Source of the DNA: Ktedonobacteraceae bacterium
Lineage (GTDB): Bacteria; Chloroflexota; Ktedonobacteria; Ktedonobacterales; Ktedonobacteraceae
Direction of reading: 5' to 3'
Assembly (NCBI GenBank): GCA_035653615.1
Contig: DASRBN010000015.1
Coordinates: forward strand, 62,001 to 126,000
Length of the DNA stretch: 64,000 nucleotides
Positions 32,212 through 52,062 of this stretch are shown piece by piece. Positions within the stretch are counted from its first letter, which is position 1, and the number at the start of each line of letters is the position of its first letter. Under the pieces are notes generated by a model, which was given only the letters and a program-made list of their open reading frames with translations, was not told the DNA's origin and made no database searches. The position numbers and the translations under genes are program-made.

Positions 32212-33303
32212 ATGTCATCTTCTATTCCTGCAATTGAACCGCTGCGTGTCGCCATTATTGGTTATGGACTGGCGGGTTCGGTATTCCATGCTCCCCTCAT
32301 CGCGGCCACACCCGGTATGGCTGTAACTGCCATTGTTACGGGCAATCCCGAACGCCAGCAGAAAGCGAGCCATGATTTCCCGTCCGCGGCTATCCTATCT
32401 TCAGCCGAGCAACTCTGGCATGATTCTGCGCGCTATGACCTGGTTGTGGTAGCATCTCCCAATCGGACGCATGCTGCGCTTGGCATAGCCGCCATGAAAG
32501 CCGGATTGCCCGTCGTGATCGATAAGCCCATGGCAGCTTTCGTCGCCGATGCTGAACAGTTAATTGCGACGAGCAAAGATACGGGCAAACTACTGACTGT
32601 GTTCCAGAACCGGCGTTGGGATAATGACTTTCTGACAGTGCAACGCATGCTGAATGCAACTCCCGACTTGCTTGGCACAATCACACGCTTTGAGTCGCGC
32701 TTCGAGCGTTATCGTGCGGCCCCACGTCCAGGCGCGTGGCGCGAACTTCCAGATTTAGAGGAGGCGGGCGGATTGCTCTACGATCTTGGCAGTCACCTGG
32801 TCGACCAGGCCTTGCAGCTTTTTGGGCAGCCGGTGCGTGTCTACTCTGAGATGAATCAACGTCGTACTGGGGCGCAAGTCGATGATGATACCTTTGTTGC
32901 GCTTGAATTTCCTGGCGGCGTGCGTGCTCATCTCTGGATGAGCGCTATTGCCCGCATTGCAGGCCCTAGAATGATGCTGAGGGGCCTGCGCGGCACCTAC
33001 GTGAAGTGGGGACTCGATCCCCAGGAAGATGCGCTCCGTTCTGGTATGCGACCGGGAGACAGTGGCTGGGGCCAGGAACCTCGCGAAAGCTGGGGACAGC
33101 TCTCCACAGATATCGACGGCCTGCACTTTGATGGACCTGTAGAGACGATTCCCGGTTGCTACGAATGTTTCTATGCTCTGCTGCGCGATGCGCTTCTCTC
33201 CGGAGGGCCACCACCGGTAGACCCCGCCAGCGCTATTGCGACGTTGAAGATAATCGAGGTGGCAAAGTCGAGCGCGGCTAATAATAGGGTAATTGAATTG
33301 TGA
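32212..33303 (+). CDS. Gfo/Idh/MocA family NAD(P)-dependent oxidoreductase
   Basis: 363 residues. The N-terminal Rossmann fold has VAIIGYGLAGSVFHAPLI (about 12-29) and the family hallmark VIDKPMAAFVADAEQL (about 100), whose Lys and Pro line the active site. GGLLYDLGSHLVDQALQLFG (about 185) is the C-terminal-domain signature. It is similar to scyllo-inositol/other sugar dehydrogenases (YvaA/IolW type). The substrate is probably a sugar or inositol. GGAG precedes the ATG. The FrnE-like gene follows after 13 bases and is probably co-transcribed. Confidence 0.92.
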   Translation: MSSSIPAIEPLRVAIIGYGLAGSVFHAPLIAATPGMAVTAIVTGNPERQQKASHDFPSAAILSSAEQLWHDSARYDLVVVASPNRTHAALGIAAMKAGLPVVIDKPMAAFVADAEQLIATSKDTGKLLTVFQNRRWDNDFLTVQRMLNATPDLLGTITRFESRFERYRAAPRPGAWRELPDLEEAGGLLYDLGSHLVDQALQLFGQPVRVYSEMNQRRTGAQVDDDTFVALEFPGGVRAHLWMSAIARIAGPRMMLRGLRGTYVKWGLDPQEDALRSGMRPGDSGWGQEPRESWGQLSTDIDGLHFDGPVETIPGCYECFYALLRDALLSGGPPPVDPASAIATLKIIEVAKSSAANNRVIEL

Positions 33304-33316
33304 AAGGGGTACTGGC

Positions 33317-33916
33317 ATGCCTGTTCGTATCGATGTCTGGTCCGATTTTGTTTGACCATTCTGTTTTCTGGTAGCCTCCAGTTTGGAGAAGCTTCAACAG
33401 CACTATGACCTGGATATTCACTGGCGCTCCTACCAGCTGCGTCCTCCTGGCTCGCCTCCTATCCCGCCCCAGCGCCTGGAACAAATCAAGGCCGCGCGCC
33501 CGCAGCTCCAGCGCAGGGCACGCGAGCAATACGGCGTGGAGATCAACCAGGGCCCTATGAATATCGATAGCCGTCCGGCCCTGGACGCTGAAAAGTATGC
33601 CGAATCGCAGGGCAAAGGCAAGGCGTTCCACGAGGCCGTCATGCGTGCCTACTGGCAGGAGGCATGCGATATCAGCGACCTCAACGTCTTGCAGGAAATC
33701 GCGCAAAGTGTTGGCCTGGATACTGAAAACTTCGCGTCAAAAATAAAAAATCCTGAATACGATGCCCAGGTCTCCGCCGACATTGACCTGGCAAATGAAT
33801 ACGGACTGGATGGCGTACCGGCGCTTGTCTTTGCCGAGAAATACCTGGTCATGGGTGCGCAGCCCTACAGCGTTCTGCAACAGGTCGTAGAAAGGGTTCA
33901 GGCCGAAAGCGTGTGA
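33317..33916 (+). CDS. FrnE/DsbA-family oxidoreductase with in-frame TGA at the first redox Cys (candidate selenoprotein)
   Basis: From the ATG at 33317 (AAAGGGG 8 bases upstream) the frame reads MPVRIDVWSDFV, then TGA (33353-33355), then PFCFLVASSLEKLQQHY and on to a TAG-free stop at 33916, 199 codons. Family members have CPxC at this spot, so TGA replaces exactly the first redox Cys while the second is kept. Later segments (LRPPGSPPIPPQRLEQI, NEYGLDGVPALVFAEKYLVMGAQP with the cis-Pro loop) are normal FrnE/2-hydroxychromene isomerase-like thioredoxin folds. A SECIS-like hairpin follows at 33373-33393. Read as selenocysteine this gives a UPFC active site. A Cys-to-stop point mutation is the alternative, with only a 177-residue fragment from TTG 33383. 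Confidence 0.7.
33373..33393 (+). promoter_or_regulatory. Candidate bacterial SECIS element
   Basis: AGC-CTCCA, loop GTT, TGGAG-AA-GCT: a 5-bp upper stem, a 2-base 3' bulge and a 3-bp lower stem. The apical loop begins with G and lies 25 bases after the TGA at 33353. This fits the known bacterial SECIS geometry (short loop with early G, roughly 16-37 bases from UGA). Hairpins this small arise by chance, so this supports but does not prove Sec insertion. Confidence 0.5.
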
Positions 33917-48887: not shown

Positions 48888-50017
48888 AGGAATGGCTTGA
48901 GGCTCGTAACATACTGGCCGTGCGGCTGGACAATATCGGCGATGTCATCATGCTTGGCCCTGCCTTACGAGCGGTAAAGGAAACTTCGCCGCAGGCTCGT
49001 CTCACACTCCTGGCGAGTCCCGCCGGGGCGACCGCGGTTCCATTGCTGCCCTGGATCGATGATGTCATCACGTGGCGCCCTATCTGGCAGGATGTCGGTG
49101 GGCGCATGCCTTTTGACCCGTCACGCGAGCGCGAGTTGATCGATATCCTGGCTCAGCGCGGATTCGATGCCGCTTTGATCTTCACCTCGTTCAGCCAGAC
49201 GCCGCATGTTCCCGGCTATGTCTGCTACCTGGCGGGTATTCCACTTCGTGCCGGAGAATCGAAGGAGTTCGGCGGCAGCACCCTGACGAACGAATTGAAA
49301 GGCTCGCCCGATCAACTGCACCAGGCAGAGCGAAATTTGCGCCTCGTCGAGCAGCTTGGCTTCGTCGTTCATGACCGCCAGCTCATGGTTTCCCTATCTT
49401 CAGAGGCGCGAGCAGCCGTACCGGCTTTACTCAATAACGCCGGAATCAACCCGGACAGGCCATATCTGCTGCTTCATCCGGGCGCCAGCGCGCAGGCCCG
49501 CCGCTATCCACCAGAACGCTATGGCGTGCTCGCTCGTCTGTTGACCCGGCGCGGCTGGCAGGTGCTGGTAACCGGCGTTGAACGCGAAGCGGCGTTGATC
49601 GAAGAGGTCATTGAACATGCGCCCCAGGCCCATTCCCTGATTGGTGGAACCACACTGGCTGAATATGCTGCCCTCGTCGAGAGCGCGGCTCTCGTCATCT
49701 GCAATGATACCCTGCCCATGCATCTTGCCGATGCCCTGAGAACTCCGGCAGCCGTCCTGTTCTCCGGTACCGACTTCGAGGAGCAATGGCGTCCAAGAGC
49801 AACGCGCGCGCGGTTGCTGAGGCGAAACACCTCCTGCCACCCTTGTTATCTCTTTACCTGCCCTATCGGCCAGCCCTGCCTCGACATCTCGCCCGAAGAG
49901 GTAGTCGAAGAGGTTGAATCCTTACTGACCTCGCTGCCCGATTCGCGTAGGGACGAACCCATGAGGTCTCCCGTTGGCAGCCGTCCAGAATTGGATGGGA
50001 GTGTGGATGTATGTTAA
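48884..50017 (+). CDS. Glycosyltransferase family 9 (heptosyltransferase-like), second of three
   Basis: 377 residues, clearly paralogous to the preceding gene: NILAVRLDNIGDVIMLGPALRAVK, LLLHPGASAQARRYPPERY and ALVICNDTLPMHLADALRTPAAVLF. The Cys cluster CHPCYLFTCPIGQPCL is kept. GGAGGTAGAGCG lies before the ATG, and the start overlaps the upstream stop. The donor is presumably the heptose nucleotide made by the GmhA/GmhB pathway. The acceptor is unknown. Confidence 0.9.
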   Translation: MKEWLEARNILAVRLDNIGDVIMLGPALRAVKETSPQARLTLLASPAGATAVPLLPWIDDVITWRPIWQDVGGRMPFDPSRERELIDILAQRGFDAALIFTSFSQTPHVPGYVCYLAGIPLRAGESKEFGGSTLTNELKGSPDQLHQAERNLRLVEQLGFVVHDRQLMVSLSSEARAAVPALLNNAGINPDRPYLLLHPGASAQARRYPPERYGVLARLLTRRGWQVLVTGVEREAALIEEVIEHAPQAHSLIGGTTLAEYAALVESAALVICNDTLPMHLADALRTPAAVLFSGTDFEEQWRPRATRARLLRRNTSCHPCYLFTCPIGQPCLDISPEEVVEEVESLLTSLPDSRRDEPMRSPVGSRPELDGSVDVC

Positions 50018-51093
50018 GCAAGGAAAGGGAAATACGGCGTATCGCCATCTTCCGAGCGCTCCAACTCGGCGACCTCCTGGTGGCTGTACCGGCATTGCGC
50101 GCGCTTCGCGAACGATTTGCTTGCGCCGAAATAACACTCATCGGCCTTCCCTGGGCGGCCTCATTTGTACGGCGCTTCAGCCGCTACATTGACCGCTTTG
50201 TTGAATTTCCCGGCTTCCCCGGTATTGACGAAGTGGAAGTCAATCCCAAGCGTACCGCGCGTTTTCTCGCGCAACAGCGGGCCTACAGTTATGACCTGGT
50301 CATCCAGATGCATGGAGATGGCACCGCCAGCAATCCGTTCGCGCTTCAACTTGGAGGAGATGTAACGGTTGGCTACTTTCAAGGCAAACGACCCGCTAGA
50401 TTGACGCTCGGTCGAAAGTACCCACAGCACCTCTCAGAAATTGAGCGCAATCTCGCGTTAGTCCGATTGCTCGGTTGCCGCGACGTTGATCCCAGGCTGG
50501 AGTTTCCATTGTACAACCAGGATTACGCGGAGGCATCGGCGTTGCTCCAGCGGCTCCCCCTGGCGACGCGCCCCTGGATTGGCATTCATGCAGGCGCCCG
50601 ACCGCCGTCTCGCCGCTGGCCTGCCGAATACTTTGCCCGGCTCGCCGACACATTCGCGCAACGCTTTAATGCACAGGTAATCTTGACCGGAGGTCCTGCT
50701 GAAGAGCCAATTGTACAGAAAGTCGTAGATTTGATGGCTACATCGCCGTTGAATATAGCGGGACAAACTTCGCTCGGTGGCCTGGCCGCCTTAATCAGCG
50801 AATTGGACCTGTTCATCAGCAACGATACCGGCCCTGCCCATATCGCGAATGCTCTCGATGTGTCCAGCGTCACCATCTTTGGCCCGGCGGATTACCGGCG
50901 CTGGGCGCCGCTCGATCAAGAGCGGCATCGCGTCATCCGGCGCCCGGTAGCATGCAGTCCCTGCGGTTACTGGGATTGTCCTATCGATCATCGCTGCCTG
51001 CGCTGGATTCATCCCGACGAGGTTGCAGAGGCGGCAATATCCTTGCTGTCGCCTGTCATAGCAGAACATTCGACTATAGTGAAAGGTGTGTGA
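50011..51093 (+). CDS. Glycosyltransferase family 9 (heptosyltransferase-like), third of three
   Basis: 360 residues: IRRIAIFRALQLGDLLVAVPALRALRERF, WIGIHAGARPPSRRWPAEYF, VILTGGPAEEPIV, and DLFISNDTGPAHIANALDVSSVTIFG. CSPCGYWDCPIDHRCL repeats the C-terminal Cys cluster. It begins 7 bases before the end of the previous gene. It diverges more from the first two, so it probably adds a different residue or uses another acceptor. Confidence 0.9.
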   Translation: MLSKEREIRRIAIFRALQLGDLLVAVPALRALRERFACAEITLIGLPWAASFVRRFSRYIDRFVEFPGFPGIDEVEVNPKRTARFLAQQRAYSYDLVIQMHGDGTASNPFALQLGGDVTVGYFQGKRPARLTLGRKYPQHLSEIERNLALVRLLGCRDVDPRLEFPLYNQDYAEASALLQRLPLATRPWIGIHAGARPPSRRWPAEYFARLADTFAQRFNAQVILTGGPAEEPIVQKVVDLMATSPLNIAGQTSLGGLAALISELDLFISNDTGPAHIANALDVSSVTIFGPADYRRWAPLDQERHRVIRRPVACSPCGYWDCPIDHRCLRWIHPDEVAEAAISLLSPVIAEHSTIVKGV

Positions 51094-51102
51094 AGGTATT
51101 CC

Positions 51103-52062
51103 ATGCGGCGTCTCAACATATTGATCTGGCATATTCATGGTAGCTATCTCAATACCCTGGCCCGGCTCGACCACAACTGGTACCTGCCCATCAAACCCGG
51201 TCGCCCGGAGGGATATGGCGGTCGCGGCCCAACATTCGACCTGCCCGATTACGTGCGCGAAGTTCCAGCAGAGCAGGTGCGGAATCTCGATCTTGACCTC
51301 ATCATCTATCAAACGCCGAAGAATTACTTCGAGGATCAATTCGAGCTATTGAGTTCGGAACAACGCCGCCTGCCGAAAATCTACCTGGAACACAACACGC
51401 CCAAACCCAATGCCGTCGACACGCGTCACCCGATTGACGATCCCGATGTCCTGCTTGTGCATGTCACCCACTACAACCGGCTGATGTGGGACAACGGACG
51501 TACCCCAACCATCGTTATCGAACACAGCGTAGCCATTGACCCTACAATTCGCTACAGCGGGCATCTTGAGCGCGGTATTACCGTCGTCAATGGCATGCAG
51601 AAGCGGCCCCGCGTTGCCGGCTACGACCTGTTCCTACATGCCAGACAGAAGGTGCCCCTGGACGCTGTAGGAATGGAGACCGAGGCGTTCGGTGGCCTGG
51701 GAGATATCCCATACCGCGAATTACATCATCTCGTGGCAGGATACCGCTTCTTATTCAGCCCGATTCGTTATACCAGCCTGCCCCTGGCTGTGATCGAGGC
51801 CATGACCATCGGTATGCCGGTCGTCGCCCTGGCGACAACAGAACTGCCAACCGTCATCGAAAATGGTAAAACCGGCTATGTGTCCTGCGACCTCGATACA
51901 CTTGTCAACCAAATGCGCTCTCTACTCGTGGATAAAGAGAAAGCCTACCAGTTAGGGGAGAATGCGCGAGCCGTTGCTCGTGAGCGGTTCGGCCTTGATC
52001 GTTTCATCCACGATTGGAACCACGCATTTGAAATGGTTATGCCAGCAGCATGGATGCGCTGA
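51103..52062 (+). CDS. GT4-like glycosyltransferase
   Basis: 319 residues. The N-terminal half (LNILIWHIHGSYLNTLARLDHNWYLP) is an acceptor-type Rossmann domain. The C-terminal half has YRFLFSPIRYTSLPLAVIEAMTIGMPVVALATTELPTVIENGKTGYV, the donor-binding EX7E-like region of GT-B, GT4-type enzymes. The overall length is short for GT4. It starts 9 bases after the third GT9 gene and is in the same operon. The sugar is unknown. Confidence 0.8.
   Translation: MRRLNILIWHIHGSYLNTLARLDHNWYLPIKPGRPEGYGGRGPTFDLPDYVREVPAEQVRNLDLDLIIYQTPKNYFEDQFELLSSEQRRLPKIYLEHNTPKPNAVDTRHPIDDPDVLLVHVTHYNRLMWDNGRTPTIVIEHSVAIDPTIRYSGHLERGITVVNGMQKRPRVAGYDLFLHARQKVPLDAVGMETEAFGGLGDIPYRELHHLVAGYRFLFSPIRYTSLPLAVIEAMTIGMPVVALATTELPTVIENGKTGYVSCDLDTLVNQMRSLLVDKEKAYQLGENARAVARERFGLDRFIHDWNHAFEMVMPAAWMR

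Follow-up and report, generated by a model that had tools for sequence, protein, structure and literature searches.

A candidate selenocysteine-containing FrnE-like oxidoreductase gene in a Ktedonobacteraceae genome, with relatives across the Chloroflexota

The DNA analysed here, referred to as the window, is a stretch of 64,000 nucleotides from a soil bacterium of the Ktedonobacteraceae. A previous interpretation made from the letters alone (the sequence-only reading) had described in it a ribosome binding site, an ATG and a 199-codon frame with one TGA at codon 13, and our re-reading of the sequence agrees. The locus comprises the following features:

32212-33303, + strand: Gfo/Idh/MocA oxidoreductase gene, upstream, 13 nt before the ATG.
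33303-33309, + strand: Shine-Dalgarno-like AAAGGGG, 7 nt 5' of the ATG, read from the sequence.
33317-33916, + strand: complete gene for a FrnE-like oxidoreductase of the DsbA superfamily, 199 residues, predicted to contain selenocysteine (Sec) in the active site U13-P-F-C16 (frame, PF01323, homologues and fold).
33353-33355, + strand: UGA codon 13, presumably read as Sec (of 81 homologues, 68 have TGA and 13 have TGC/TGT at this codon).
33362-33364, + strand: TGT, codon of the resolving Cys16 in UPFC, a residue that does not vary in alignment A1.
33376-33388, + strand: hairpin resembling a bacterial SECIS, CUCCA[GUU]UGGAG, with the loop G at nucleotide 26 after the UGA (paired columns and geometry).
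33818-33820, + strand: Pro168 of the GVPA loop, invariant in alignment A1, with a presumed cis-Pro role.

The frame starts at the ATG at 33317 and stays open until the TGA at 33914-33916, the sole in-frame stop being the TGA at codon 13, which falls on the position of the first redox Cys of a CPFC motif. When this TGA is read as a residue, the product matches PF01323 (DSBA) with 119.8 bits over residues 5-190 (cut-off 25.6), in agreement with the FrnE/DsbA-like family proposed earlier, and no NCBIfam model specific for the protein was found (best 33.6 bits versus a cut-off of 190). The second Cys is kept, as had been noted, and the positions of U13 and C16 are both invariant in alignment A1. 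Pro168 lies at what we take to be the position of the cis-Pro beside the active site in thioredoxin folds. The Gfo/Idh/MocA gene and the FrnE-like gene are probably co-transcribed. Since the gene neighbourhood differs in the relative L004, where the upstream neighbour is not the one found in the window, no functional inference was drawn from it.

Relatives of the protein were sought in 400 Chloroflexota genomes and were present in 200; loci were taken from the best matches, and the redox motif could be located by pattern in 81. At codon 13, 68 of these homologues carry TGA and 13 carry TGC or TGT. As sampling was guided by resemblance to a Sec protein, this ratio is not a phylum frequency. TGA and Cys codons thus alternate at this site, within a motif that is nearly always SD[FY][VI]-U/C-P-[FWY]-C. 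The five closest genomes within the family have TGA here too, and it recurs at the same codon in the independent public MAG records L003-L005 (two Ktedonobacterales and one Anaerolineae), so that the sister strains do not all have Cys. Three more TGA relatives outside the pattern count (L101, L113 and L116) were read individually. L113 (genome G208) is a divergent relative in which UVWC (HDVLUVWCFLAS) takes the place of UPxC. L116, also catalogued as L147 (genome G348), is FrnE proper in a Sec form (SDIVUPWCYIGKRRFE), and its close relative L148 (genome G317) appears frameshifted at the active site.

The genome of the window (G000; 6.59 Mb, 44 contigs) contains selA, selB, selC and selD. One tRNA-Sec above the Rfam threshold was found (65.8 bits, anticodon TCA), and SelB, SelA and SelD are encoded with matches of 362, 577 and 381 bits, respectively. 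The SelD gene itself has a TGA within SCAGUASK (L023, C33:206603-207526), and the gene for a molybdopterin formate-dehydrogenase-like subunit (FdhA) has one within RIUHS (L119, C33:143345-144931). Both motifs are classic sites of Sec, and at least three selenoprotein genes are therefore predicted in this genome. Across the Chloroflexota, SelA is present in 71 of the 73 genomes that carry the TGA gene and in 321 of all 400 (hypergeometric p about 5e-6). The two remaining genomes, G095 (94% complete, 220 contigs) and G217 (86%, 1040 contigs), carry the TGA gene and give no SelA match at E 1e-50, possibly owing to incomplete assemblies.

Within the window, 5 of the 33 other frames that result from reading through a TGA were checked against Pfam, and no second selenoprotein was seen among these five: two correspond to neighbouring whole genes and three have no match. 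In one of the former, at 49951-52056, two glycosyltransferase genes lie in one frame with a TGA between them at 51091, which looks like a pair of adjacent genes and not like recoding.

The hairpin with a G-first loop that had been pointed out some 25 nt past the TGA is indeed present; it occupies 33376-33388, and the G of its loop is at +26. Taken by itself it is not significant, since an equal or better hairpin arises in 12.6% of synonymous-codon shuffles (p 0.126). However, 68 of 81 homologues have TGA at the same codon, and all 68 Sec genes have, just downstream, a hairpin whose geometry is that of a bacterial SECIS, with G as the first or second nucleotide of the loop. This comparison lifts the window hairpin above chance. 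In Cys homologues the hairpin is absent or weak. Minimum free energies of the region did not clearly separate Sec from Cys genes (Mann-Whitney p 0.06), and the genes were compared instead by a score that rates hairpin geometry explicitly and by an analysis of paired columns. The mean score was 9.2 for Sec genes versus 1.9 for Cys genes (Mann-Whitney p 1.4e-8, uncorrected for kinship); since the sequences are related, such p-values are optimistic. In the clade of the window, positions 21-33 to 25-29 after the UGA pair in 9 of 9 Sec genes, and the outermost pair is CG, UA or GC, that is, it shows compensatory changes, whereas in Cys genes these columns mostly do not pair. In most other Chloroflexota Sec genes the centre of the hairpin lies 4 nt nearer to the UGA than in the window's clade, and compensatory changes are found mainly at two pairs. 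Bacterial SECIS elements of the E. coli fdhF type are in-frame hairpins immediately 3' of the UGA, with a small apical loop and a G in its first two positions. The window hairpin has in common with them its in-frame location right after the UGA and a small loop with an early G, and differs in sequence and pairing.

Near-cognate tRNAs can read through UGA, and misreading of this kind could in principle place Trp, Cys or Arg at codon 13 instead of Sec. We consider this very improbable here: the site is a redox Cys that alternates only with Cys, the genome encodes SelB and a tRNA-Sec whose anticodon is TCA, and the hairpin tracks the TGA.

Selection was assessed between the relatives L029 and L030. 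Past the TGA, dN is 0.09 and dS 1.6, and the frame downstream of the TGA is under purifying selection. In the first 15 codons past the TGA, pS is 0.10 versus 0.71 in the rest, a difference that comes from just 15 codons and would be consistent with constraint on an RNA element. These data bear on the possibility, raised by the sequence-only reading, that, in this strain, a chance TGC/TGT-to-TGA mutation disabled what had been an ordinary FrnE-like gene with Cys. A single point change would be enough for such a conversion, and that reading had reported other disrupted genes in the window. Nevertheless, a pseudogene is now an extremely remote prospect, and a chance mutation is excluded by the conservation of the TGA, which occurs at the identical codon in 68 homologues throughout the phylum as well as in close relatives of the same family. 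Moreover, selection acts past the TGA with dN/dS far below 1 between relatives, the genome has the Sec machinery, and there is no second lesion or other inactivating mutation in the gene. A true stop at the UGA with a restart at TTG 33383, which mechanically opens an ORF for a 177-residue protein lacking the active site and would make the hairpin incidental, is just as improbable, because the 12 codons before the TGA show conservation at the protein level (pN about 0.1 versus pS 0.3-0.8), the U13 and C16 positions do not vary, genes with a Cys codon have a weak hairpin or none, and this TTG starts inside the hairpin. All three alternatives were rejected on conservation, selection, machinery and hairpin.

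We therefore favour, with a probability of about 96%, a gene for a cytoplasmic FrnE-like thiol-disulfide oxidoreductase whose UGA at codon 13 would be decoded as Sec via SelB and the downstream hairpin. At the computational level, the selenoprotein with a UPFC active site that had been put forward as a candidate is supported by the machinery, the conservation of the TGA, the Sec/Cys alternation and the hairpins, Sec itself being a prediction. By analogy with the known bacterial mechanism, SelB with Sec-tRNA-Sec would bind the mRNA hairpin 20-33 nt past the UGA, and Sec would be inserted at the N-terminus of helix 1. The selenol-thiol pair of U13-P-F-C16 would then reduce or isomerise substrate disulfides, and the UPFC form might be faster, or more resistant to over-oxidation, than the CPFC form. 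Since beta strand 1 is not preceded by a signal peptide, the location is presumably cytoplasmic; catalytic role and partners are likewise putative.

A tree of the 81 proteins, taken as unrooted, requires a minimum of six changes between Sec and Cys. In the branch to which the window protein belongs, the six Cys members of family f24 (L033-L038) are nested among Sec sequences, suggesting a replacement of Sec by Cys; in f24, SelA is still present and the hairpin pairs are lost. As far as can be judged from these sequences, f24 would represent a natural Sec-to-Cys replacement accompanied by hairpin loss.

AlphaFold2, run with a 16-sequence alignment, gave a confident DsbA fold (pLDDT 93.7, pTM 0.88), in which residue 13 lies just before helix 14-29. 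Deinococcus radiodurans FrnE is the best PDB match both in fold (5co3, TM 0.89) and in sequence (E 5.7e-21), in line with the family first proposed. FrnE, a cytoplasmic disulfide oxidoreductase, has been linked to tolerance of cadmium and diamide; the CX4C at its C-terminus, proposed as regenerator of the active site, is not universal in FrnE (PMC8945050). The Deinococcus protein (DR_0659; PDB 5cnw, 5co3, 5cp1) and the window protein have the motif WSD-x-x-C/U-P-W/F-C in common, but the former has Cys first where the latter would have Sec, is about 240 instead of about 200 residues long, and possesses the CX4C that is absent from the window protein, which is therefore named FrnE-like and not FrnE. 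CX4C was found in 0 of the 81 sequences of the window protein's branch, versus all 19 paralogous Cys FrnE sequences obtained from this family of bacteria. Among FrnE-proper loci throughout the phylum it is present in 23 of 29, the six without it being the only Sec one and five Cys ones.

In 29 genomes of the bacterial family, the Sec protein occurs in 6, Cys FrnE in 20 and both in 1, as obtained by comparing loci L128-L146 and L147-L176 with L027-L032. This near-exclusion has a Fisher p of 0.0055, uncorrected for relatedness among the 29 genomes. It might be due to the Sec protein doing the job of the canonical Cys FrnE in this family, with the active-site Sec removing the need for the C-terminal CX4C, so that the two enzymes would exclude each other. 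We regard this explanation as unlikely: the sole Sec version of FrnE proper that was found, which also lacks CX4C, speaks in its favour, but CX4C is likewise absent from some Cys proteins, among them those of f24 in the branch of the window protein.

The gene is of a kind that gene callers will truncate or miss. Natural Sec/Cys pairs are available in genomes still carrying selA, and with the swap and hairpin loss in f24 it becomes testable why Sec is kept or dropped, in an enzyme that is a little-characterised cytoplasmic disulfide oxidoreductase.

A DsbA-like UxxC family of bacterial selenoproteins was reported in 2005 by Zhang et al. and assigned to COG2761 (PMC1088965). A marine survey of 2008 counted it as "DsbA 1" (PMC2398784), a 2016 paper counted it in 41 organisms (PMC5029168), and a 2026 review lists it as "DsbA-like form 1", PF01323 with UxxC (PMC13188914). 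A selenoprotein FrnE has also been named in green algae (Mamiellophyceae, M. viride; PMC6627142); this is a eukaryotic gene, comparable by name and Sec content. As described in the available parts of PMC1088965, PMC2398784 and PMC13188914, the UxxC family has in common with the window protein PF01323, Sec as first redox residue, Cys homologues and a SECIS-like hairpin directly downstream, a likeness drawn from those descriptions. The window gene shows PF01323, TGA at the first Cys together with Cys homologues, and the hairpin, and its genome encodes SelA, SelB, SelD and tRNA-Sec. Since such selenoproteins have been known since 2005, a point on which the sequence-only reading was silent, the gene adds to a known family. 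The available parts of the published accounts give no Chloroflexota distribution and no comparison with FrnE, and our literature search turned up no account of FrnE-like Sec proteins from Chloroflexota. To what we found in the literature on this family, the present analysis adds its spread through the phylum, the swap of Sec for Cys, the displaced SECIS and the near-exclusion between the Sec protein and Cys FrnE. The family appears as a well-supported, largely unremarked group of selenoproteins across the Chloroflexota, including the Ktedonobacterales.
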